Shown here: positions 6,900 to 20,098 of the stretch, one piece after another
How positions within the stretch are numbered: position 1 is the first letter of the stretch
How the letters are laid out: the number at the start of each line of letters is the position of its first letter
Virus record (IMG/VR): IMGVR_UViG_3300032284_001769
Coordinates: 1 to 20,148 of that record
Source of the DNA: a virus
Strand: one strand, 5' to 3'
DNA: 20,148 bases
Notes under the pieces: generated by a model
What the model was told of the DNA's origin: nothing
Database searches by the model: none
Seen by the model: only the letters and a program-made list of their open reading frames with translations
Translations under genes and position numbers: made by a program

Positions 6900-7922
6900 A
6901 TGCCAACACGAAGTTTACTTGGGCAAATTCTAAACCGCACTCCTTGGGAAGTGCAGCACGCCGACGAACAAGACGCCGAGAAGCGCAAGTTCGATAAGCA
7001 GACGCGGCTAGACGAATTGACTACTGCCTCAAAATTACGCAAGGAAGAAGAAGCGGACCGACTGGCTGCGGCGCGCGACGACATCAAGCAGAAAGAACTG
7101 CACATGCGCGAAATGCTCGTGTCGAGCTACGGGCCTGAAAAAGGCGCGGCTATGTTCAATGATATCATAGGGCAGCCCGGCTATTTGGCGCACAAGGAAA
7201 ATGTAGTTAATCAACTAGCGGCCGCTGGAACCGAGGCGCGAATCCCAGGCGAAGGCGAATTAGCGGTGGTCAATCAGAACGCCGACAAGGAGGCGGCAAA
7301 GGCGCGCGGCATTATCGCAAACACTGCCGGACTTACCTCGTTAGCCACTGACCCGAAAAAGGTCGGCCACTCGATAACTAACGCAGCCGAACTGACCTCG
7401 GCTAATGCGCTGCTCAATTCCGCAGTGGCTGATAAAACCGATCCTAATGCGCTGGCTGCCGCAGCCAATACAGGCGCACAAGTACAAACTGCGGCCAATA
7501 ATACTTTGCTCCGGCCGTTCACAGTTAATAATACCGGAGCCGCAGCGGCCGCTAAATTGCCGCCTATTACCGACACTGGCGCGGGCTTGCAGGCTTTAGG
7601 CAACTTGCTGCCGAGCGCGCAAAAAGAAGAACAGGCAGCTTATCTTGGCGGCAGGACTTTGACAGAAGAGCAAAAAGCCGCACTTGCTAAGCAGCAGGCC
7701 GATATGATGAGTGGCATACTAGGCGGTACTACTGCGACGCCAACTACCATGCTCGGAAATCCTCTGCAATCCTTGACAACCGGAACTAGCGCGACTTCGT
7801 CAAATGTGCCGGGACCGGTCATAACTACCGCGCCTAATTCGACTAGCGGATTGGGGACCGGCGAGAAAGCCTTCGACCCGAAACAAGGACCGGCCGGAAA
7901 GTTCTTTAAGCCGAAGAAGTAA
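6900..7922 (+). CDS. Putative internal virion protein with N-terminal coiled coil (340 aa)
   Basis: 340 residues, starting 12 nt after the previous stop; the upstream CTAACCTTTATCTGAT has no Shine-Dalgarno. Residues about 19-75 are strongly charged and helical (EQDAEKRKFDKQTRLDEL, KLRKEEEADRLAAARDD), consistent with a coiled coil. The middle (about 100-240) is Ala/Asn/Thr-rich helical sequence. The C-terminal 90 residues are low-complexity Thr/Ser/Gly/Pro, ending in a basic GKFFKPKK tail. No known domain is visible. It lies between two other internal-protein candidates and corresponds in position to T7 gp15, although T7 gp15 is more than twice as long. It is best regarded as a component of the ejection apparatus; this is inference from order and composition. 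Confidence 0.48.
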   Translation: MPTRSLLGQILNRTPWEVQHADEQDAEKRKFDKQTRLDELTTASKLRKEEEADRLAAARDDIKQKELHMREMLVSSYGPEKGAAMFNDIIGQPGYLAHKENVVNQLAAAGTEARIPGEGELAVVNQNADKEAAKARGIIANTAGLTSLATDPKKVGHSITNAAELTSANALLNSAVADKTDPNALAAAANTGAQVQTAANNTLLRPFTVNNTGAAAAAKLPPITDTGAGLQALGNLLPSAQKEEQAAYLGGRTLTEEQKAALAKQQADMMSGILGGTTATPTTMLGNPLQSLTTGTSATSSNVPGPVITTAPNSTSGLGTGEKAFDPKQGPAGKFFKPKK

Positions 7923-7934
7923 CCCACTACGATT

Positions 7935-10900
7935 ATGGATAAACGCTTTTACAGGTTGGATGACGAGGAGCTGGACAAAGACGCAGTGCTCGCGGAGTTG
8001 CGCGCCAAGCACCGCGACGCCAAACCCGACGACTACCTGCTCGACGCCACGACCGGCCAGTTCGTGCCCGCGCCGGGGAGCATCGGCTCCGGGCTGGCTT
8101 CTGCCGCCGCGAATGTACTGCCCGGGCTGGGCGCGCTAGTCGGCGGGACGGCAGGTCTAGCGGCTGGTGGACCACTTGGTGCGGCAGGGGGCGGATTAGG
8201 TGGCGGCTATCTTGTAGGTAAAGCTCAAGATGCTGTCCTACCTGATGCCGCCAAAGACTACCTTGCGCGCGCAGCGGCAGCCCATCCGGCTTTGACGACC
8301 GCGACTGGAATCGGAACCGGGCTGGTCGCCTCTGGCGGCGGCGGACTAGGAAGTAAGATTCCCATGCTGGCGCGGCTAGGTTCGGCCGGACTTAATGCCG
8401 GACTTGATGCTGGCGTCCAGATGGCGCAGAATCAATCTATCGACCCTAGGAACATTAACTTGCTCCAGACCGGCCTAGCCGGAGCTGCGGGCGGATTGCT
8501 GCCCGGTCGCGCTCCCGGAATGCTCGGGCGGCTACAGGCCAATACCGTCACGCCATTAGAGAATGCAGTGGCGCGACTGCCCGGACTGGCTAACAGTCCG
8601 CACGCGCAGGAGATCCTAAAGAGGAATGCCTTGCCACCCGAACACAATCCCTATATTCTTCCTCCGCGCGATCCTAATTTGCCTCCAGACAAGCTGGACC
8701 GTCCGCGCAATGCAGCTGCTAATGCTGTGCTGATTCAAAACCAGCACGACATTCCCGGCGCGATTAAGATACTTCAGGAGCAGCAACATCCTATTACCCC
8801 TGAGGAATTGGAATATCTCGGGCCGAACGTGCGCGGCTATACCGCGAAGGACCAGATCCCTATTCAAGAACTCTCCACCCGCCCGATGGAGATAGCCTCC
8901 GTCATGAAGGGCGTCGGCCACCCCGAGGGCGCGAAGGCCATCCTTGAGGCGCGCAAGGCTATGGGCGGCGCAGAGCTGCCAATCGAAGAGGCTCAGCGGC
9001 TGTATAACAAGCCGGAGGCTCTACAGTCCTACCTGTCGGCCAACGCTACCAAGATCGCGGAAAGGATCGCGCAGCAGAAGGCCGCCGAGAAGGCCGCAGA
9101 GGAAATCCCGGCGCAGCAAGTCGCGGAATCACTGCACGACGTTAAAACAAGCGAACCGCACCTTGAGCAATTAGCTAAGCAGGGCAACAAGACCGCGGCG
9201 CTGATGCTCAAGGCCAAGCGCGCCGGGCTGGACCTCGCGCCTGAAGATATCGCCAAGCTGCACATTGACGGCAAACAGCACCTTGATAACCTCCTTGCCG
9301 CGCGGACCGACGAGCAGATCAATGCCGCCGACAAGGCTCTCGCCGCTAACAGGGCGACAGAAGAGGCCACCGCTAAGGCCGCGACTGAGAAGGCGCAGAC
9401 CAAGGGTGTGTCAGAAGAGATGAAAAAGACCGAGGCCGAACTGGCCGCGCTCAAAGTCGCCAAAGAACGCGAAGACAAGCTCCAGCAGCCGCCGCGAGTG
9501 CAGGCGACCGGTGGGCCTATTGATGACACCCTGTCCTACGCGATTGCCAAAGGCAATCCTAAGGCGCTGGAAGAGCTTGGTCTGTTGAATCATCCGACTA
9601 TTAAAGATGTAATGGAGCTGCGGAAGTTGGGCGTCAATGTCCGGCCCGAGGATGTGCGCGCCATTCAGCGCGAGCCAATGGCCGCTAAGAATGCTATCTT
9701 GCTCAGACATCTTCAAGAAGCTGCAGGCGGAACAATGGGCCACGGACCTACGGTCGATGTGCCGCCGGGAGGGTCTGGCTCGCCAACCGGTGGGCCGGAA
9801 TTGCCACCGCCAACTTTGCCTGGACTTCCCGCGCCGCCAACTCAAAAAAAAACTGAAGCCCTAGCTGTCAGGCCAAGCGCCCCTGAGCAGAAAATCCCCG
9901 GCATGGGCGCCAATCTGCGCAAGAAGCCGTCCTCGACTGAGGGCGGTTTTGTCGCTATGCCTGAGCCTCTGCGGCGGCTGGGCGAGGGATTGAATAAGGC
10001 CATAACCTCCTCGGCGGACCTAATCCGCGAGGTGCGCCCGAAGATTGCCGCCGCACTGTCGGACATGCCGGTCGTCTTCACACAGCTGCACAACGAATAT
10101 GCGCGCCATGTCGACACTGCTTTCAAAGGATTGAAGCGCGCGGAGATAGAGCATCTCGGCGACCTGATGCACCAAGAATATAGTACTCAGACTTCGCTGC
10201 GCTCTCTACTGCCTGACAAGCTCCTGCCAGCGTACGATAGCTTGCGCGCCATGTACCGCACCATGCAGGTGCACCAGAACCTTGAGGGGCCTTTAATCGA
10301 GGGTAGAAGAAAAGCTGAACAAAGTGATTTTTGGGTTCCTGGGAAGTTCTCCTCAGAGGCGCGCGATCTTCTGCAATCTAACTCCCCGCGAGGGCAAGAA
10401 ATCAAGGATGCTTGGACTCGGGACTACACGTCGAGAAATCCCGGCGCGACGCCCGAAGAGGCTCTGGCCGCCCTTAAGCAGCGCGCCGGAATCGGCATTC
10501 GCAAGGGCGACCCTATCGCGGAATATGGGCCGCTAAGACGTTCAGAGGGTGTCCCATTGCCTAAGGAACTGCGCGCCGGGTTCGAGGAGTCTGCGCGGAC
10601 TTACGTCACCCGCTGGGCGCGCGACATGGCCTTCCACCAGACCATCGAATCGCGCCCGGAGATTGCTATTCCACTCGGCCTGAAAGATTCGGGCAAAGGA
10701 GTGGACTACACCAAGGGCGAATTCCACGACCCCGAAACTGGCGAGCGGCTCACTCAGGACATGCGCCTTGACGCGCCCTTCAAGGACGTGATGAACAACT
10801 ACAACAACATCGGGGCGGACCATACCGGCGGGTTCCGCGCGGCTAGCTCGCTGGCGAAGTCGGTCATCATGGGGCCGCACACCGCGCTGGCGTTTCTGGC

Positions 10901-12275
10901 GCAGACCCCGACCAGCATGTACCCCTTGATGAGGAATCCGGCGCGCGGGATGTCCTCGATCCTAGGCGGGCTGGCCAAGACCATCTACGATCCGGCGGGG
11001 TCCATAGCTAATGCGAAATCTGCCGGGGCCATCAAGCAATACAACCCGACCACAACCGACGTGCATAATATCTCGGGCGCGGCCTCGAAGCTCGCGCAGA
11101 TGATTTTCCGGCACACCGGCACTGAAGCCATCTACGACATGCAGCGCGCGTGGGGCTACGAGACCGGGAAGCTATATGCGGATATGGCTTTGCGTACAGG
11201 AGATGAGAAGTTCCTGAACGAGATGGGGCCCGCGAATTGGCGCACGATGAACCACGATGAGGTGGTGGAAACTACTGCCGCCAAGGTCGCGCGTTTGACC
11301 GGCGCGTCGGACTTCACCGAACTGCCGGGCTGGCTCCAGCAGCACTCCGGCAATGCGGTGGCTAATGGGCCGCTGGCCTTCGGGCGCTGGGGCGTCGGTC
11401 AGTTCAACCACTTCCGGCGGTTCGTCCTGAAGCCGCTAAGTGAAGGCAATGTCATTCCGCTGTTAGCTTCGGTCGGCGTGGGCGCGGCGACCAAGACCGG
11501 CTGGGACGAACTGAACAAGGAGCTGTTCGCGGGCAAGCCCAAGGAGATGACCCCGATGGAATGGCTCGGGCTGAAGTCCGAGGACAAGGGCAAGTTCCTT
11601 TACAGCATGGTCGCGTCGATGATACCGGCCGGGATTCTGTCTGATTTGGCCGTGAAAGCGGCGCACCAGCTGGCGCTCGGGGAGGAGACCTCCGCGAGTC
11701 TGGCGACCTCATCGCCCATCATGGAGTCCTACTTCAAGACCGCGAATGGGGTGCACAACTTCATTAGCGCGCTGAAGGAAAATCCGCAGGACCTTGTTGA
11801 ATTATTGAAAGTGTTCGGCAAGGACGTAATCATGAGCAACGTCCAAGTCGCGAATGACCTAGCGAAAGTAACGGGCGCGAAAGAAGATAAGCACCTGCGC
11901 GAGCAGAACATGTTCAAACAGGCAATGGGCGAGAAGTTGCATCTCGGAGATGTCATACCGGACAAGTACTCTCCGGAGGCGCGGTTTAAGGCCGCAGATA
12001 CCGAGGAACGCGCCCGTGAATTAGCTAAAGAGCTGAAGGAGAAACCCTCGCTGCCTAACACCTCAACGAAGCCTACACTGAAAGAGGCCGCCGAGCAGCA
12101 GTTCATGCAGCAAATTGGCGGACCCCGGCTTGTTGAGGATATCAACAGCGCCAAGATCCGCCAGTTGCAGCTAAACAAATTGAAGGAGTCGCTGGTCAAA
12201 GGTCTGCCGCCCAAGGACCTCGAACAGAAGCAGCGGTATATTAACTTCCTTTCAACTGCACGGGCCGCTCAGTAA
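7935..12275 (+). CDS. Giant internal virion/ejection protein (1446 aa)
   Basis: 1446 residues, the largest gene here, comparable to T7 gp16 (about 1318). Residues 1-46 are charged. Residues 47-192 form a Gly/Ala hydrophobic block with glycine-zipper spacing (GLGALVGGTAGLAAGG, GAAGGGLGGG), a plausible membrane-inserting segment. Residues about 350-520 are charged, Ala/Glu/Lys-rich helix and probably coiled coil. A proline-rich linker spans about 607-655 and contains an A9 DNA tract. The C-terminal half (about 660-1446) is helical. It holds several hydrophobic stretches (for example SVIMGPHTALAFLAQ, NVIPLLASVGVGAA, LYSMVASMIPAGILSDL), resembling the long helical regions of large phage internal or polyvalent proteins. 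No lysozyme or transglycosylase motif was found, unlike T7 gp16. The likely role is DNA ejection through the cell envelope. The last 35 nt overlap the convergent gene. Confidence 0.58.
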   Translation: MDKRFYRLDDEELDKDAVLAELRAKHRDAKPDDYLLDATTGQFVPAPGSIGSGLASAAANVLPGLGALVGGTAGLAAGGPLGAAGGGLGGGYLVGKAQDAVLPDAAKDYLARAAAAHPALTTATGIGTGLVASGGGGLGSKIPMLARLGSAGLNAGLDAGVQMAQNQSIDPRNINLLQTGLAGAAGGLLPGRAPGMLGRLQANTVTPLENAVARLPGLANSPHAQEILKRNALPPEHNPYILPPRDPNLPPDKLDRPRNAAANAVLIQNQHDIPGAIKILQEQQHPITPEELEYLGPNVRGYTAKDQIPIQELSTRPMEIASVMKGVGHPEGAKAILEARKAMGGAELPIEEAQRLYNKPEALQSYLSANATKIAERIAQQKAAEKAAEEIPAQQVAESLHDVKTSEPHLEQLAKQGNKTAALMLKAKRAGLDLAPEDIAKLHIDGKQHLDNLLAARTDEQINAADKALAANRATEEATAKAATEKAQTKGVSEEMKKTEAELAALKVAKEREDKLQQPPRVQATGGPIDDTLSYAIAKGNPKALEELGLLNHPTIKDVMELRKLGVNVRPEDVRAIQREPMAAKNAILLRHLQEAAGGTMGHGPTVDVPPGGSGSPTGGPELPPPTLPGLPAPPTQKKTEALAVRPSAPEQKIPGMGANLRKKPSSTEGGFVAMPEPLRRLGEGLNKAITSSADLIREVRPKIAAALSDMPVVFTQLHNEYARHVDTAFKGLKRAEIEHLGDLMHQEYSTQTSLRSLLPDKLLPAYDSLRAMYRTMQVHQNLEGPLIEGRRKAEQSDFWVPGKFSSEARDLLQSNSPRGQEIKDAWTRDYTSRNPGATPEEALAALKQRAGIGIRKGDPIAEYGPLRRSEGVPLPKELRAGFEESARTYVTRWARDMAFHQTIESRPEIAIPLGLKDSGKGVDYTKGEFHDPETGERLTQDMRLDAPFKDVMNNYNNIGADHTGGFRAASSLAKSVIMGPHTALAFLAQTPTSMYPLMRNPARGMSSILGGLAKTIYDPAGSIANAKSAGAIKQYNPTTTDVHNISGAASKLAQMIFRHTGTEAIYDMQRAWGYETGKLYADMALRTGDEKFLNEMGPANWRTMNHDEVVETTAAKVARLTGASDFTELPGWLQQHSGNAVANGPLAFGRWGVGQFNHFRRFVLKPLSEGNVIPLLASVGVGAATKTGWDELNKELFAGKPKEMTPMEWLGLKSEDKGKFLYSMVASMIPAGILSDLAVKAAHQLALGEETSASLATSSPIMESYFKTANGVHNFISALKENPQDLVELLKVFGKDVIMSNVQVANDLAKVTGAKEDKHLREQNMFKQAMGEKLHLGDVIPDKYSPEARFKAADTEERARELAKELKEKPSLPNTSTKPTLKEAAEQQFMQQIGGPRLVEDINSAKIRQLQLNKLKESLVKGLPPKDLEQKQRYINFLSTARAAQ
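9844..9852 (+). other. A9 homopolymer, possible slippage site
   Basis: Nine consecutive A residues occur inside the giant ejection gene, read as CAA AAA AAA ACT (Q637-K-K-T). It is the longest A run I noticed in this GC-rich gene. It sits at the proline-rich linker between the N-terminal and C-terminal halves. Insertion of one A brings TGA at 9854-9856 into frame within two codons. Loss of one A gives LKP and then TAG at 9862-9864. Either slip would give an N-terminal product of about 640 residues. Slippage itself is not demonstrated, and the run could also be a place for sequencing error. Confidence 0.35.
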
Positions 12276-13930: not shown

Positions 13931-14436
13931 TTTGCTTGGTGGGGTATGATGCTAATTGTTTGCTCTCCGCGCGCCGCCAAATCCCAGACCATCCACGCGC
14001 AGGTTACGCTGTCAGTCTTGCCGTCGCCTGTGAATGAGATTCTAGGCAGGATGATAAGATGGTTTGGCGGGCGCTCGGCCAGTAAATCTTCGCGCTGATA
14101 AGTGGGCTCAAGAAAAGATAAACGCAGTAGCAGAGCCACGAACCTTCGGCGCGCCTTAAAGATTGTCTGTAGAATTTCGAACGCCAGACTGAACGGCGGG
14201 TTGGTAATCACGGCGTCAAAGTCATTATACAAATGAACATGGCGCGCGTCGTGTCCGGTAGTTATGTCGAAGCCTGCCGCAGTATGGCCGCGCTTTTTGA
14301 GCACATTTAAGATGTGCCCTTGGCCGCAGCAAGGCTCGATGATTGGGTCGGGTATAGTTGAGCCGAAGCGGTCAAGCAGTGCGTGGGTCGCCCATGCAGG
14401 GGTAGGATAAAACTCTCGTGGGTTTTGGGGGTTCAT
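13927..14436 (-). CDS. DNA N6-adenine methyltransferase, orphan phage type
   Basis: 169 residues. The opening EFYPTPAWATHALL is typical of short phage Dam-like methyltransferases. Motif I (SAM binding) is IIEPCCGQGHIL (33-43), and D57 may contact the SAM ribose. Catalytic motif IV is NPPF (79-82), the N6-adenine form. The C-terminal SVTCAWMVWD also fits this family. No separate target-recognition domain or partner endonuclease is present, so it is likely an orphan enzyme that could protect phage DNA from host restriction or mark it; specificity is not predictable. It overlaps both neighbours by 4 nt (ATGA with the helicase stop and with the MazG-like start), so the three genes are probably translationally coupled. 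Confidence 0.82.
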   Translation of the reverse strand: MNPQNPREFYPTPAWATHALLDRFGSTIPDPIIEPCCGQGHILNVLKKRGHTAAGFDITTGHDARHVHLYNDFDAVITNPPFSLAFEILQTIFKARRRFVALLLRLSFLEPTYQREDLLAERPPNHLIILPRISFTGDGKTDSVTCAWMVWDLAARGEQTISIIPHQAK

Positions 14437-15674
14437 TTTGCTGTGGTTGGTTGTTTCTTGCGAAGGTGCGGAACGCCCGCCGGAGTGATGCGCTCGATGT
14501 CATTGTTAATCGCGAGCAGCTCGCGGACGATAGTGTAGAACTCTTCCATGTTGATGTCGGCTTGGTAGCGCGTGAACAGCTCGACCTCGGAGATGCCTTG
14601 GACGCGGGTTTCTTTTGTAATGTCGCGCGTTAAGAGGCGGGAATAGAAACTCATTTCATTCCTTCCGGAGAAGTTCAGGCCTCGCGCCATGGCGGCCTCG
14701 TTCCTGTCGAGCAGCTCAAGGGCGGACTGGAACGCATGCAATGGAATTTCCAGCGAGTCAGATTCGGAGAAGTGCATGGCGGCCGCCAGCTTCAGAAGAG
14801 CTACACGTTTGCGGCCGTAATACGTGCGCATCTTGGCGCTCGCGGCTTTTTCGGCGGGCACGTTCTTGGTGATGTACCAGTCCTCAAGGAAGTCGTGGAC
14901 TTCCTTCGAATAAGTTAGCTGGCCATAGAGTTTAGTCAATGCGAGTACCCGCTGCTCGACCTGAGCGCACGCGGCTTCTTGCGCGGCATCGAGGCCCATC
15001 TGGTGAAACCGCTCGAACCGCCGCTCATGGGCGAAAACGAAAATGCACCGCGACGTGAAGCCGTCGTCGAAGATGCCGAGCCGGGTGGCCTCGCGCAAGA
15101 AGCCCTCTTGGGCGCACGCCAGAAAGTTGAGGCACATATTCCTTATGAGGTCCTGCGGCCCGTGCTTGGGCTTGTAGTCATAGTCGCCGCAGTCATAGGC
15201 TTCGAGCAAGAACTTAATAATTTGGGATTGGTTCTGCTTGAACAGCGAAGCGAGTTCCTCAAGGGCGAACGCTAGGCTCGCGTGGATATAGGGCTTCTCG
15301 CCCTTGATGCGGTACGACCTAGTGGCGCCGGTCATGTCTTTCAATAGGCCTTCGAAGGTCGTGGTGTTGGCGCCGCCGGGGATTAGGCGCGGAAGTTCGA
15401 GGCGGTTGCCCGCGACGGTTACGGCCGCGCCCTCCGCCCATGGGTGCTTCTTAAGAATGCCATTGACCTTCGACAGGACGAGGCCCTTGCCGATGGCGGG
15501 CTCGCCCACGAGAATGATGTAGGTGTTCGGGAACAGCGCGCCCTTGTCGCGGTTGTTGTACCACACGCGCCGCTGCAATGCCGCAGTTATCATGGACACA
15601 TAGCCGAAGTCAAGGTATATCTGCGGGCAGGTCAGGTCGCGGGTGTAAAGTTCCCAAGCTTCGCGGTTGGTCAT
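14433..15674 (-). CDS. DUF3987-like AAA/RecA-type ATPase, putative replicative helicase
   Basis: 413 residues. A P-loop LVGEPAIGKGLV (G57 to G64, K63 the Walker A lysine) has Gly where Ser/Thr is usual. A Walker B-like strand follows (SLAFALEEL, E139-E140). A sensor-type strand is NFLACAQEGFL and a candidate arginine finger is GFTSRCIFVFAHE. This order matches DUF3987-type helicases found beside phage replication genes. The C-terminal about 150 residues are helical and end in a basic HLRKKQPTTAK. No primase (zinc or Toprim) domain is fused, and none is seen elsewhere in the window. It lies 4 nt after the polymerase palm gene, which fits a replisome role. The AAGGA 11 nt before the ATG falls in the previous gene's last codons and may be fortuitous. 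ATPase assignment is solid; helicase function is inferred. Confidence 0.7.
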   Translation of the reverse strand: MTNREAWELYTRDLTCPQIYLDFGYVSMITAALQRRVWYNNRDKGALFPNTYIILVGEPAIGKGLVLSKVNGILKKHPWAEGAAVTVAGNRLELPRLIPGGANTTTFEGLLKDMTGATRSYRIKGEKPYIHASLAFALEELASLFKQNQSQIIKFLLEAYDCGDYDYKPKHGPQDLIRNMCLNFLACAQEGFLREATRLGIFDDGFTSRCIFVFAHERRFERFHQMGLDAAQEAACAQVEQRVLALTKLYGQLTYSKEVHDFLEDWYITKNVPAEKAASAKMRTYYGRKRVALLKLAAAMHFSESDSLEIPLHAFQSALELLDRNEAAMARGLNFSGRNEMSFYSRLLTRDITKETRVQGISEVELFTRYQADINMEEFYTIVRELLAINNDIERITPAGVPHLRKKQPTTAK

Positions 15675-15678
15675 TATG

Positions 15679-16707
15679 TTAGATTTCCTTCATCCCGAGA
15701 GGGTTGTGCTCTTCGTGCCATTTGCCCCAGTTGCGCCCTACCGATACTTCAGTGCCCATACGATATTGAACGCCGCGACTGCTGACAAGGTCGCGCCCAA
15801 TATGACTGCGCAGGGCGTCGGCCGCCATCTCAATATGCTCGCGAGTATCAGGGCACTGCAAAAGTATAGAATCGTGCTTGTTATTAAGGAGGTCCCACGG
15901 CAGGCGCTCGCGCTCGATCTTTCGTTGCAGCTCGGAGAAGGCGACGTTGGTGATGGTGCCGACTGTGGACTGGGGGACGGCGGCGTAGAACTTTCGTTTG
16001 GTGTCATGGCGGTATCTTTCGGTGATGTAGATAGGGTGGCCGAACAAGTTGCGCACTGGGGTGCGCGCCAGCATCTTAGCTTGGAGTTCGTTCTGCCATT
16101 CGAGAATCTCTGGGAAAGTCGAGCTGTAAGCGCCTTGTATTTTCTTGACTTGGTCGAGGGTCAGGACGAGCTGCCCGGCGGTTTCTTCGATGACCGAGGT
16201 CAGAAAGGTGTTCGGGCCGACATCGTAGTTTCCGGAGTGGATGGACTTCTTGCCTAGGAAGTAACGCGTAGAATATTTACCTTTGAGAGACTTCTTGATA
16301 GCGGGCCATTCGGGGAGTTTCTTAATCTCGTCGACCGGGACGCGGGAGAAGTAATCCTTACTATGCGCCGCGAAGAACTCTCGGTGGAACTCATCGTTGA
16401 ATATGACGACCGCCATGTACTCGTGCGGCTTGACGCCCGACTGTATGAGCTTGAGGAACTTTGCTGGAGGCGCTTCATAGGCGACAATGACCGCCTCGGC
16501 CCCGGCTTGGTCGGCGGAGACGAAGATCTTACCCTCGTCCGGCACGACGGAGCGCATCATCGCCTCGGATGGATTCTGGGCGTTGCCGCCGTAGATGCCC
16601 AATAAGGCGGCGGACGCCAGCCGGAAGAACACGGTGCCCGTGACCTTCCAGCCGGTCGTTAATCTACCGCGAGGGGCGGGCGGCAGGATTGCGGTTCGTT
16701 TGATCAT
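15679..16707 (-). CDS. Family A DNA polymerase, palm/fingers half (split polymerase)
   Basis: 342 residues starting directly at the palm. TGTVFFRLAS (23-32) and NAQN (42-45) match the TGRLSS / LQN region of family A polymerases. Motif A is VSADQAGAEAVIV (D66 catalytic, E71). Motif B is GKKSIHSGNYDVG, where K153 aligns with the O-helix lysine, H157 takes the place of the usual Phe/Tyr, and Y161 follows. Motif C is NKHDSILLQ (H278-D279), with Ser280 where HDE has Glu. Both catalytic aspartates are therefore present. No exonuclease or thumb is encoded; these are in the gene at 18126-19481, about 1.4 kb upstream. No upstream Met extends it, and the next Met is residue 50, past essential motifs. 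The start overlaps the 110-aa gene by 44 nt. Together the halves make a complete Klenow-like enzyme. Confidence 0.88.
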   Translation of the reverse strand: MIKRTAILPPAPRGRLTTGWKVTGTVFFRLASAALLGIYGGNAQNPSEAMMRSVVPDEGKIFVSADQAGAEAVIVAYEAPPAKFLKLIQSGVKPHEYMAVVIFNDEFHREFFAAHSKDYFSRVPVDEIKKLPEWPAIKKSLKGKYSTRYFLGKKSIHSGNYDVGPNTFLTSVIEETAGQLVLTLDQVKKIQGAYSSTFPEILEWQNELQAKMLARTPVRNLFGHPIYITERYRHDTKRKFYAAVPQSTVGTITNVAFSELQRKIERERLPWDLLNNKHDSILLQCPDTREHIEMAADALRSHIGRDLVSSRGVQYRMGTEVSVGRNWGKWHEEHNPLGMKEI

Positions 16708-16996
16708 AGGCTTTTACTTGATCTTCTGTTATGCCGAGAATCCTGATGAGCTTGTCCGCGTAGAAGTCATACTCTTCCTTGGTGTTCCAGCCCATCATGT
16801 GCAGCTTGACCGGCTCATTGAAGCGCGACCTGATTATCATCGCGCCCTTAAAGGTGGTGAAGGTCATAAAGGATTCGGGCTCGCCGCTAAATTGAAACAG
16901 ACCAATGGGCGGATTGTCTGAGCCGTCCCATTGGTAGATTTCGATGTAGCGCAGCTTCTTAAATACTGACACAGCAGTTATGTTATCAATATTCAT
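16664..16996 (-). CDS. Hypothetical 110-aa protein between ligase and polymerase palm
   Basis: 110 residues, starting 5 nt after the ligase stop; leader without a Shine-Dalgarno. The composition is that of a small alpha/beta protein (LRYIEIYQWDGSD, FMTFTTFKGAMIIRS, helix EEYDFYADKLIRILGI), with a polar basic tail. No family is recognised. Its last 44 nt overlap the start of the polymerase palm gene in another frame, so ribosomes leaving this gene could re-initiate at the polymerase. Being wedged between polymerase halves, it may be a replication accessory protein, but the sequence gives no direct hint. Confidence 0.65.
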   Translation of the reverse strand: MNIDNITAVSVFKKLRYIEIYQWDGSDNPPIGLFQFSGEPESFMTFTTFKGAMIIRSRFNEPVKLHMMGWNTKEEYDFYADKLIRILGITEDQVKAYDQTNRNPAARPSR

Positions 16997-17001
16997 ATGG
17001 C

Positions 17002-17775
17002 TTATTCATAATTTCGAACAGCTACGAAACGGGGCTTCAGCGGCACCCCGGTTTTCGAGAGCCGCTCGTAGTTGATGGTAATGGTCGCGCCTAGGTACTT
17101 CGCGCGGTTGTAGAAGAATTCATCTCTCATAGAGTTGTCCATGCCGGAGCAGGTGAACTCAGTGCCGTCCGGTAAAGAGCATTTCAGGGACCCGAGCGTA
17201 GCTGAAAATTTCCCCCCTGACTCGCCGCGCAGAAAGCCTGTGATAGTTGCCTCGCAGGACCGGACTTTCTTGAGGCGCATACAAGCGGCCGACCGGCCGG
17301 GGGTGTAGGGCGCATGGGCGTCGCGGATGATGATGCCCTCCTCTCCGGCGGCCACAAGCATCTCGAAGTATTCCTTTACGTCGTCTTCGATATCGCCCGA
17401 ATAATACTCAGGGACGAAAGTCAGGCGCTTGAGGTAATTGCCGGGCGCGATCTCGTCGAATAGAAAGACTCGAAGTTCTTCGATGTCTTTGTGGCGCGAG
17501 GTGCGCGTGACCGCCGCAAGTTCCTGCACGCGCTGGACGCCGCCCTTGGGCGACCAGAGTTCGCAGCAGCGCGGGTTCTTGCCGCGCAGGGCTTCGGCTT
17601 GCGGGATGATGTTCATGCCCCAGACTTTGCCTTGACGCGTCTGGAGAGTGCCGTCAGGGTGGATGATGCAGAAGATGCCGTCTTTCTTGCGCTGGACTAG
17701 AAACCGCTCAGGTAAAAGGTTTGGGTTATAGTCCATCGGGTGCATCAACTGGTCGCGGGGAATTAGGGTGGCCAT
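17002..17775 (-). CDS. ATP-dependent DNA ligase
   Basis: 257 residues, short for the family and close to minimal viral ligases. Nucleotidyltransferase motifs in order: motif I K30-K-D-G33 with K30 the expected AMP-accepting lysine, although the usual Arg two residues after Gly is Phe (GIF); CELWS at 71-75; motif III VFLFDEI (103-109); motif IV EEGIIIRD (145-152); motif V RLKK (167-170). The remaining 85 residues form a beta-rich OB-fold-like region (CEATITGFLRGESGGKF, TITINYERL). It seals nicks during replication or repair. It is 2 nt after the upstream small gene and lies between the two halves of the DNA polymerase. RNA ligase or mRNA-capping enzyme, the other members of this superfamily, are less likely given the neighbours. 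Confidence 0.82.
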   Translation of the reverse strand: MATLIPRDQLMHPMDYNPNLLPERFLVQRKKDGIFCIIHPDGTLQTRQGKVWGMNIIPQAEALRGKNPRCCELWSPKGGVQRVQELAAVTRTSRHKDIEELRVFLFDEIAPGNYLKRLTFVPEYYSGDIEDDVKEYFEMLVAAGEEGIIIRDAHAPYTPGRSAACMRLKKVRSCEATITGFLRGESGGKFSATLGSLKCSLPDGTEFTCSGMDNSMRDEFFYNRAKYLGATITINYERLSKTGVPLKPRFVAVRNYE

Positions 17776-17777
17776 AG

Positions 17778-17975
17778 TTAAAGAGTCTTATCTATGAATT
17801 GAATGGATGGGCGTTTGTGGAATATATAAATCATGTCGCCAATCTGGACTGTCTCAAAGAAGTTGGCGTACTTTGCATTAGCCTTGGCTAGCTTGTCCTG
17901 AATGCGCATCAGCAGGCGGTGCTGGCGTAGCCTCTGGCGGCGGCTAGGGTTGGCGCGCTGGTAGGTTTGACTCAT
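17778..17975 (-). CDS. Hypothetical small basic protein (65 aa)
   Basis: 65 residues with a strongly basic N-terminal half (RANPSRRQRLRQHRLLMRIQ) and a hydrophobic strand-rich end (VQIGDMIYIFHKRP). The basic part could bind nucleic acid; no domain is recognised. The start overlaps the preceding gene by 32 nt and the stop is 2 nt before the ligase start. The ATG leader (GGCAATAAACAAAAGCAGAT) has no Shine-Dalgarno. It is one of three small genes lying between the polymerase halves. Confidence 0.55.
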   Translation of the reverse strand: MSQTYQRANPSRRQRLRQHRLLMRIQDKLAKANAKYANFFETVQIGDMIYIFHKRPSIQFIDKTL

Positions 17976-18141
17976 ATCTGCTTTTGTTTATTGCCTGTGT
18001 CCAAATACCGGAGTATATCTTGTGTTCGATCATTCCAGTTTTAAACTCTAATTGGGCGCGCTTATACATTAGCATATCCGCTTCTGTCCAACGCTTAATT
18101 GGGTCGCGTTCTAGTTCGGTGGGCTTTATGTCTTCAGCCAT
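17944..18141 (-). CDS. Hypothetical small protein (65 aa) following the polymerase exonuclease half
   Basis: 65 residues, helical and charged (ELERDPIKRWTEADMLMYKRAQ, then IYSGIWTQAINKSRYESNL). No family is recognised. Its start lies 16 nt inside the end of the exonuclease/thumb gene and its end overlaps the next small gene by 32 nt, a tightly coupled arrangement. It does not resemble any missing part of the polymerase. A role as a small partner joining the split polymerase is possible but unsupported by motif. Confidence 0.55.
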   Translation of the reverse strand: MAEDIKPTELERDPIKRWTEADMLMYKRAQLEFKTGMIEHKIYSGIWTQAINKSRYESNLPARQP

Positions 18142-19481
18142 TTTGGTGTGTATAGAGTAGGGGTTAGGTTGGAAAGTTCTTTGGCGGCCGCTCGGTAGCG
18201 GATGATAAAGGGAATCAGCGGGTTGCCATATTTCACAAGGAGCTTATACAGACTCTTGGAGTCGCACATAGGCTGCTTGGTCTCGGCGGAAAAGGCGGGC
18301 GGCTGGTAGTTCAGGGTGTTGTAGAAGAACTGCTGGCACTGGGCGGTCGAGCCGGGGTTAAAGTCGGGCGAGCCGATCAGGGCGCGGCACAGGCGGAGAG
18401 CTTGGGCCTTCTCGCGTTCGAGATTCTTGACTTCTAGAGCTTGCTGCTTGAGGTCCACCCGCAAGCCGAATAGGGAGTTTACGAGATAAGGCTCGATCGA
18501 GTCGTTGACCTGATTGATCGAGAGCAAGTAGCTGTTGTCGGTCATCATCGCATAGTGCCACTGGGCGGCCTTGATCTCTTTCAGCACTGCTACGTCCTTG
18601 CCGTTGTAGGCCCAGAGCTGCGCCTCCTGCTCGGGGTTGTGCGGAAAGATCATCTCGCCCTTATGGTAGGGCCGGTTGGTCCACATCATTACGGCGTGCG
18701 CGAGAGACTTTTCGAGCTGCGGAAAGAGCCGGTGCTGGGCCGCCATCGTATCGTATATCCGGTGGCCGAACAGCCAGCGGTAGTACATGCCGAGGAAGAC
18801 AAGGTCATAGCTGGAGTTATGGGCGATCAAGACGCCGGTGGACATGGCGCGCAGAAAGGCGCGGTAGAGCTGGGCTGTGTCTTGAGGAGAGTAGGCCAGT
18901 TTGTTGTTGTACCTATAGAACGGCACGACATAGACCGGCCCATCGTTGACGCTGAAGCCAATGCAGTCGAGAGTGTCGGCGCGCGATTCGATGTCGAAGT
19001 AGAACTCGTCATTGCGGGTGACCTTGTTCAATACGGAGATGACCGAGGTCGCCGGAGGGTAGGTAATGATGCGCGGCAAAGGAGGCGATGGCTTGAGGGT
19101 GCGGGCCTTCCGGCAGATCCACTCGGTCCAGAACTTCCAGTTGGCGCGCTTGGTCACCTCGCGGTCTTTGTTGTCTTGGGCGGAGGGTTTGTCGTCATCA
19201 TTGGATAATCCCTCGTAGTCCTTCACGTCCATCGCGTCCTGCGGCGGCCAGATGTGCGTCTGGTTGCCCGCGAAGAAGTAGCCATGGGGCAGAGAGGGCT
19301 TGAGACTGGCGATAAAGACGGCCTTGTATTTATGCGGAACAGGGCACGGGCGCAGAGAGACAGTTAATTCATTCCGAGGAATGCAGGACTCGTCAAACCA
19401 CGTCCCGGCCGAGCCGGTCAGCAGCTCGCCCGGAGTGTCGCGGTCGAAGCGCGAGGGTTTATCTAGTTGGAGGTAATACAT
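18126..19481 (-). CDS. Family A DNA polymerase, 3'-5' exonuclease plus thumb half (split polymerase)
   Basis: 451 residues. Residues 1-155 are an unrecognised N-terminal extension. The DnaQ-like exonuclease follows: ExoI FDIES (D163, E165), ExoII HNSSYDLVFL (N222, D226), ExoIII YNGKDVAVL (Y292-x3-D296). All acidic metal ligands are present, so proofreading activity is expected. Residues about 330-445 resemble the polymerase thumb (VNSLFGLRVDL, FNPGSTAQCQQFFYNTLNY, then FIIRYRAAAKELSNL), which is where a normal family A enzyme would continue into TGRLSS of the palm. Instead the ORF stops at 18126, and the palm is a separate gene at 15679-16707. A hairpin with a T5 run ends only 7 nt before the ATG, so expression may depend on readthrough from the SSB-like gene. 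Confidence 0.85.
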   Translation of the reverse strand: MYYLQLDKPSRFDRDTPGELLTGSAGTWFDESCIPRNELTVSLRPCPVPHKYKAVFIASLKPSLPHGYFFAGNQTHIWPPQDAMDVKDYEGLSNDDDKPSAQDNKDREVTKRANWKFWTEWICRKARTLKPSPPLPRIITYPPATSVISVLNKVTRNDEFYFDIESRADTLDCIGFSVNDGPVYVVPFYRYNNKLAYSPQDTAQLYRAFLRAMSTGVLIAHNSSYDLVFLGMYYRWLFGHRIYDTMAAQHRLFPQLEKSLAHAVMMWTNRPYHKGEMIFPHNPEQEAQLWAYNGKDVAVLKEIKAAQWHYAMMTDNSYLLSINQVNDSIEPYLVNSLFGLRVDLKQQALEVKNLEREKAQALRLCRALIGSPDFNPGSTAQCQQFFYNTLNYQPPAFSAETKQPMCDSKSLYKLLVKYGNPLIPFIIRYRAAAKELSNLTPTLYTPKWLKT

Positions 19482-19543: not shown

Positions 19544-20098
19544 TTAGTCGAGCGACTCGGTCGACTCCGGAACCGACATATTTTCAGAGTCGCCGAAGGT
19601 CGCGAGGCCCTTGACGTTGTTCAGCTCGGCCTTGATTTCGTGGCCCGCCGGGATGGGGTTGCCCTTGACATCGAGCACCTGCTTGTAGCTGCCGTCGGGC
19701 TGCTTGACCTCCTTGAACCGCTCCTTGGTGGTCAGATAGATGTCGAACGCGATGCCTTTGAGGAGGGGGACATACTCGTCGGTGTCGCCGCGCTCGACGA
19801 TTTCAGGGTCGAGGCCGACCGTGAGCAGGAACACGTTCCAGCGCGCCAGACCCCAGTCCTGACCGGCGACCAGCAGGCCGCGCATGGTGAACTCAATTCC
19901 GGCCGGGCGGATGAAGTCCTCGGTGCTGCCGGGGACGGGCATAATGTCGGGCCCGATGATCTCGCAGTTTAGGGTGACCATGGGCGTGCCCTTGGCTTTC
20001 GAGAAGGCGAACTCGGCCTTGGTGATGCGCGCGGAATAAGTTCCGGCGGGCAGGAGGGTTGCGGAGGCTTGATTTTTGTCAGTTGCGAATACAGGCAT
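19544..20098 (-). CDS. DUF669-like putative ssDNA-binding protein
   Basis: 184 residues. The core LLPAGTYSARITKAEF, then SKAKGTPMVTLNCEIIGPD, is the 'pG.Y.a.I..ae...sk.kGtpm..l...i' beta-barrel opening of DUF669-type phage proteins, which are often placed with replication genes and considered ssDNA-binding OB folds. Later residues remain beta/alpha (FTMRGLLVAGQDWGLARW, GIAFDIYLTTKERF). The last about 16 residues are acidic (GDSENMSVPESTESLD), like the protein-interaction tails of SSB and T7 gp2.5. It is the first complete gene of the leftward block and precedes the polymerase exonuclease, fitting a replication-fork role. The leader CTAACTCCTCTATAAA has no Shine-Dalgarno. The family call is moderate; DNA binding is inferred. 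Confidence 0.62.
   Translation of the reverse strand: MPVFATDKNQASATLLPAGTYSARITKAEFAFSKAKGTPMVTLNCEIIGPDIMPVPGSTEDFIRPAGIEFTMRGLLVAGQDWGLARWNVFLLTVGLDPEIVERGDTDEYVPLLKGIAFDIYLTTKERFKEVKQPDGSYKQVLDVKGNPIPAGHEIKAELNNVKGLATFGDSENMSVPESTESLD

Follow-up and report, generated by a model that had tools for sequence, protein, structure and literature searches.

A phage family A DNA polymerase parted between thumb and palm into two open reading frames

Does a family A DNA polymerase (PolA) that is parted into two genes, with other genes lying in between, represent a working enzyme or a broken one? The question is raised by the minus strand of IMG/VR record IMGVR_UViG_3300032284_001769, a linear, metagenome-derived fragment of 20,148 bp (hereafter the window). 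An earlier note had placed the exonuclease and thumb of such a polymerase at 18126-19481 and its palm and fingers at 15679-16707, and both open reading frames (ORFs) were indeed found there on the minus strand. They are separated by 1418 nt, which hold a ligase gene and ORFs of 65, 65 and 110 amino acids (aa).

Two parts of one polymerase and the site of the break

Profile and motif comparisons confirmed the two ORFs as the exonuclease-thumb and palm-fingers parts of one family A DNA polymerase (PolA/PF00476). Subunit 1 (18126..19481, minus strand, 451 aa) comprises an N-terminal region, a 3'-5' exonuclease domain and the thumb, and subunit 2 (15679..16707, minus strand, 342 aa) comprises the palm and fingers with motifs A, B and C. 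In the phrog_17 (DNA polymerase) profile, subunit 1 covered columns 666-951 (E-value (E) 5.7e-23) and subunit 2 columns 957-1233 (E 1.8e-21), leaving only 5 columns uncovered, which indicates that the two ORFs are neighbouring parts of one enzyme with almost nothing missing between them. The Pfam domain DNA_pol_A was matched by subunit 2 at columns 227-380 (E 1.5e-11, above the cut-off) and by subunit 1 at columns 11-96 (18.2 bits, under the family cut-off). Additionally, subunit 1 was matched by Klenow and G20c PolI profiles, and its family profile aligned with the Klenow thumb as far as KxxST(Y). The earlier note had named the lack of a thumb on this protein as evidence against its own reading; this was looked for and not found.

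The exonuclease residues of subunit 1 (Exo I D163/E165, Exo II N222/D226 and Exo III Y292/D296) and the palm residues of subunit 2 (motif A D66/E71, motif B K153/Y161 and motif C H278/D279) are intact. The Exo I-III residues and the equivalents of E. coli R668, D705, K758, Y766, H881 and D882 were identical in 49/49 aligned rows of the window's clade, and the E710 equivalent was kept in 48/49, so that the full set of signatures attributed to the two proteins together is present and conserved. At the position of E. coli F762 in motif B, where Phe, Tyr or Leu is usual, a histidine was found in 48/49 clade rows and 7/7 outgroup rows. In the window it is H157 of the palm half (16237-16239) and may affect nucleotide discrimination; the same histidine is present in the one-piece polymerases of the clade and in that of phage ctMlz233.

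By profile alignment with Klenow, the last thumb residues of subunit 1 correspond to about E. coli T641. The 11 residues past the aligned thumb match the D642-T652 stretch, and R15 of the palm half, lying 14 residues ahead of R29 (the R668 equivalent), matches R654. These correspondences were counted by hand on the E. coli Pol I sequence. In this alignment the break is near E. coli Pol I residues 652-654, between a thumb-ending strand (L-x-F-x-P-W) and a palm-opening strand (R-x-T-T-x-Y/W). The former corresponds to the C-terminal tail of subunit 1 (residues 440-451; 18129..18164, minus strand), whose counterpart in one-piece relatives is, by alignment, the L-x-F-x-P-W strand. The latter opens the N-terminal head of subunit 2 (R15 to R29; 16621..16665, minus strand), which ends with the pre-motif A arginine and thus holds the R654 and R668 equivalents. 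The clean boundary between thumb and palm described in the earlier note stands, but its edges had been set too tightly: the thumb half runs about 11 residues beyond 'RYRAAAKELSNL(T)' and includes the pre-break strand, and the palm half, which does contain TGTVFFRLAS, opens earlier with the post-break strand R15-L-T-T-G-W.

In the one-piece polymerase of locus L111 (related loci are cited by our L numbers where needed), the junction reads GQLKFPPW-KGD-RITTSYNLAGTTSYRLAS, and its LKFPPW-KGD-RITTSYNLAGT segment spans the split ends LKFKPW and R-x-T-T-x-Y. A strand LxFxPW or similar is kept at the end of subunit 1 in most split homologues, and RxTTxY/W or similar at the start of subunit 2 in the split proteins; the R15 position is R in 35/49 and H in 14/49 clade rows, and the R29 position is R in 49/49. 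Because both strands are kept on their own sides, the cut appears to fall in the turn between them, at no cost to either side. The two strands would presumably form a hairpin. In the vibriophage polymerase DpoZ, the loop joining palm strand 7 to strand 8 is placed just ahead of the TGR motif (PMC8599892), which suggests that the palm half here begins around strand 7.

Two other kinds of break did not fit. The window break, about 14 residues before the R668 equivalent, is not of the type found in phage MEP401, between TGRLSS/NLQN and motif A, and the thumb lies on the exonuclease ORF and not with the palm and fingers, as it would in classical separate exonuclease and polymerase genes. A split intein was likewise rejected, since the roughly 11 residues after the thumb and the 14 before R15 are too short and no intein family was matched.

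Distribution and evolution of the split

Peptide searches with the exonuclease half of the window returned no close relatives, or L002 alone; aligned palm halves served better as a query. With those of the window and L002, 26 loci were recovered, and with a 12-member palm alignment 221, 80 of which were retained. In a hand tally of the loci after removal of duplicates, the same break was present in 49 viral contigs besides the window and a one-piece polymerase in 23 contigs of the window's clade. A homologous ATP-dependent ligase lies in the gap of 28 of those 49 contigs. The palm halves of the split contigs are 34-54% identical to that of the window; the nearest relative, L002 (54%), shows the same order as the window (exo-x-ligase-x-palm-DUF3987), and one split contig, L089, carries an extra frame disruption within the palm ORF. 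In a collection of 50,697 records no phage with a thumb-palm split was found, the matches being distant (~22-27% identity) and either one-piece or differently split. The sole match in the clade from a genome collection was L119, a contig of a Methanoregulaceae metagenome-assembled genome (MAG), which as a host clue may be binning noise. The break site has kept its place through deep evolution.

In a concatenated tree, support was 100/100 for the window clade (49 rows) and 98/96 for the one-piece group; a single switch between the fused and the split state is enough to explain the best tree. The sub-clade of the window (19 rows, support 100/100) carries a ligase in every gap. L046 and L049 also have a ligase in the gap, and a single clade of all 21 ligase rows was not rejected (p-AU, approximately unbiased test, 0.146).

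Deep within the split group, L119 is joined over the original break (RLRFLPW-VED-RDSCQW), and ~200 nt rich in stop codons break its polymerase ahead of motif A (L119:8761-9030). Its sister, L073, has halves that overlap by 22 nt. L119, a single MAG contig, is thus probably a natural re-joining of the split polymerase.

A putative two-subunit enzyme and its alternatives

The ratio of nonsynonymous to synonymous substitution rates (dN/dS), for pairs with finite dS, was 0.06-0.14 in the exonuclease half and 0.04-0.10 in the palm half, and both halves are under strong purifying selection. A search of 24 related contigs, mostly of 48-59 kb, yielded no PolB (PF00136), PolC (PF07733) or extra PolA (PF00476) locus; the window being a fragment, this result, which bears on the second complete polymerase that the earlier note had considered fatal to its claim, applies to those relatives and not to the window's full genome. 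AlphaFold predicted a good, confident palm-fingers core for the palm half alone, which matches Taq and Klenow (Foldseek E 1e-10), and left residues 1-54 unfolded (predicted local distance difference test, pLDDT, <50), as expected if the other half is needed. The best Foldseek matches of the exonuclease-half model were all PolA structures (E 3e-10).

We consider it very probable that the phage replicates with a two-subunit PolA whose halves assemble non-covalently, the break stemming from an ancestral insertion and the gap serving as a cargo slot. The exonuclease-thumb and palm-fingers subunits would be translated separately and assemble into the normal PolA shape, and the strand kept by each half would re-pair between the subunits, holding the thumb on the palm. 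In an ancestor of this clade of uncultured phages, DNA (perhaps a mobile endonuclease gene) would have been inserted into a one-piece gene upstream of a DUF3987 gene, and a single such event is the simplest account of the break. Since then the gap would have been a slot for varying cargo genes, and in the sub-clade of the window an ATP-dependent ligase would have stayed there, where co-expression with the polymerase is to be expected. The evidence fits an obligate heterodimer that is most likely functional, much as the earlier note had supposed in preferring a working two-subunit enzyme to decay.

Several points weigh against parts of this explanation. The branch that would represent a single origin of the split is weakly supported (67/41), and the HNH genes present in two gaps are weak evidence as a clue to how the split began. 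The exonuclease-half model is modest (predicted TM score, pTM, 0.61), and the low confidence of the palm head may come partly from a shallow alignment (12 sequences). The hairpin, moreover, was assigned from sequence alignment and general knowledge of Pol I, not from coordinates.

Could the two ORFs instead be exons? Introns are common in phage DNA polymerase genes (the Kayvirus polA, for example, consists of three exons and contains endonuclease genes), the authors of the MEP401 study weighed an intron for their split (PMC10580990), and a self-splicing group I or II intron with internal genes would restore a single polymerase after splicing. However, an Rfam search of the window detected no intron family even at E up to 1, the sole match being a weak, snoRNA-like chance one, and in 8 related loci no intron reached the gathering score. 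The gap varies from -38 nt to +2.7 kb with unrelated contents, a start and a stop are present in both halves, and the thumb half closes with a conserved strand and not with intron sequence, which makes an intron very unlikely. Ribosomal frameshifting or read-through yielding some fused product is less credible still. The halves do overlap, in different frames, in L015 (38 nt) and L073 (22 nt), but in the window they are separated by four other ORFs, which makes such a product impossible there, and every palm ORF has a start codon of its own.

A stand-alone proofreading exonuclease acting apart from a minimal, thumbless polymerase seems improbable. The confident palm-fingers core modelled for subunit 2 alone agrees with such an arrangement, and so do the separate exonuclease and polymerase genes of the related phages L016, L022, L024, L026, L028 and Kuura. 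In that type (L016, L022-L028, Kuura), however, the cut precedes the thumb, and the polymerase ORFs (510-560 aa) keep it, whereas the window's thumb and terminal strand stay on the exonuclease side, which is sensible only if the thumb still binds the palm; the palm head (residues 1-54), too, is disordered when modelled alone. That the two ORFs are fragments left by gene decay or misassembly has next to no probability. The window is a single linear piece assembled from a metagenome (20,148 bp), but its arrangement is common to 49 other contigs, with the same order in L002, catalytic residues almost invariant in the 49 clade rows and dN/dS of ~0.04-0.14. A far-reaching extension of the two-subunit reading, with a clade-wide obligate heterodimeric PolA, an exonuclease-thumb half that is possibly exchangeable or regulated, the gap ligase as physical partner and one operon encoding a minimal split replisome (polymerase halves, single-stranded DNA-binding protein (SSB), ligase and DUF3987 helicase/primase), we regard as doubtful.

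Split replication enzymes have been described elsewhere. The earlier note had called the break unusual, and this holds for its position, no report of a thumb-palm split in a phage PolA being found in a literature search that mostly did not extend to subscription journals, but not for split PolA as such. In the OM43 phages MEP401 and MEP402 (Zobellviridae), PolA is encoded by two ORFs with the exonuclease on the first and a small gene between (gp13/gp14/gp15), an arrangement kept in most related metagenomic genomes (PMC10580990). Unlike in the window, their gap holds one small gene and no ligase; they fall outside the window clade, and the authors left an intron open (PMC10580990). Inspection of the MEP401 sequence located its break after TGRLSS...NLQN, just before motif A. 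Vibrio phage vB_VspS_VS-ABTNL-3 (MF497422; PVS_29/28/27) likewise encodes PolA by two ORFs, which flank a 184-aa gene, but it belongs to a separate lineage and is cut after TTRLAS...NLQN, before motif A. This phage (L037, 697-3831) is an isolated, culturable example of the pre-motif A split. Split PolA is thus already known, and the thumb-palm cut is real and conserved and appears to be a new form of it, other lineages being cut at other places.

More distant cases indicate that such halves can work. In Aeromonas phages 25 and 44RR, a replicative polymerase is carried on two genes (gp43A/gp43B), maybe through a homing endonuclease gene, and the phage 25 halves co-purify and polymerise (PMC2988022), although this is a family B enzyme (PolB) of another fold and lineage. 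The NrdA of phage Aeh1, an essential enzyme, was divided when a gene (mobE) was inserted, and its pieces are fully active (PMC2988022); unlike the polymerase of the window, it is a ribonucleotide reductase, and the endonuclease insertion occurred in one phage and is not an old, clade-wide state. T7 RNA polymerase is also functional in fragments (PMC4299498). A further comparison is with the one-piece polymerases of the clade (L044, L050-L071, L111, L113) and of ctMlz233 (MW202489), which belong to the same family and have a DUF3987-type gene downstream but are single ORFs of ~790-835 aa.

If the two-subunit reading is true, the covalent link between thumb and palm would be dispensable in nature, and the site where it can be cut would be shown. 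Polymerase engineering gains a split site taken from nature, and sister enzymes in split and one-piece form can be compared directly, with L119 as a probable natural re-joining. For annotation, the thumb half and many palm halves fall under the Pfam cut-off, and such phages can seem to be without a complete polymerase.

Genes in the gap and around the polymerase

On the minus strand of the window the order is SSB-like, exo-thumb, 65 aa, 65 aa, ligase, 110 aa, palm-fingers and DUF3987. The SSB-like/DUF669 neighbour (19544..20098; phrog_378, E 1e-4) lies upstream, and the DUF3987 gene, encoding a helicase-like ATPase (14433..15674; phrog_14296, 'DNA primase'), downstream. The first 65-aa ORF (17944..18141) shares 16 nt with the end of subunit 1, the second (17778..17975) overlaps the first, and the 110-aa ORF (16664..16996) shares 44 nt with the start of subunit 2. 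Because several adjoining ORFs overlap in this way, by ~16-44 nt, the region has the look of a single operon. No Pfam or PHROG family and no homologue were found for the three small gap ORFs (65, 65 and 110 aa). The 257-aa gap protein (17002..17775, minus strand) matches phrog_114 (E 2.4e-39) and the Pfam domain DNA_ligase_OB_2 (PF14743; E 1.6e-9), and with K-K-D-G (KxDG motif I, by motif alignment) and an OB domain it is an ATP-dependent DNA ligase. Outside this region, a 1446-aa ORF at 7935-12275(+), without any PHROG match, probably encodes a virion protein.

The DUF3987 gene lies downstream of the polymerase in split, one-piece and outgroup loci, and SSB-like matches lie upstream in some split and some one-piece relatives. 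These neighbours, common to both forms, indicate that it was the polymerase gene that received the gap genes, by insertion or by exchange within it. The inserted ligase, noted earlier as unusual, is present, but it is no oddity of this phage: it is ancient and conserved within one sub-clade, and different gap genes are carried by the others. The gap ranges from -38 nt (L015) and -22 nt (L073), where the two ORFs overlap out of frame with each other, up to +2.7 kb (L046), and its contents are unrelated: DUF7831 (9 loci), ThyX (L014), HNH endonucleases (L072, L085) or small ORFs alone. The DUF7831-type family (~130-160 aa) lies between the halves of L006, L009, L011, L013, L014, L042, L080, L085 and L117; the DUF7831 assignment was made on two members of this nine-locus family, which is possibly a polymerase partner. 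HNH genes were found in the gap only at L072:7509-8027 and L085:8426-9007, with none in that of the window, and are candidate homing endonucleases.

Some single loci stood out. Within the palm ORF of L014 (6654-8621), an in-frame insert of ~290 aa in motif B (7127-8001) matches parts of PhoH and thymidylate synthase PHROG profiles and is probably an intein. The gap of L046 carries a second, stand-alone exonuclease (7114-7698; RNase_T, phrog_192 'DNA polymerase exonuclease subunit'), and a gap gene of L103 (8462-9004) matches phrog_3704, annotated as 'ferredoxin'.

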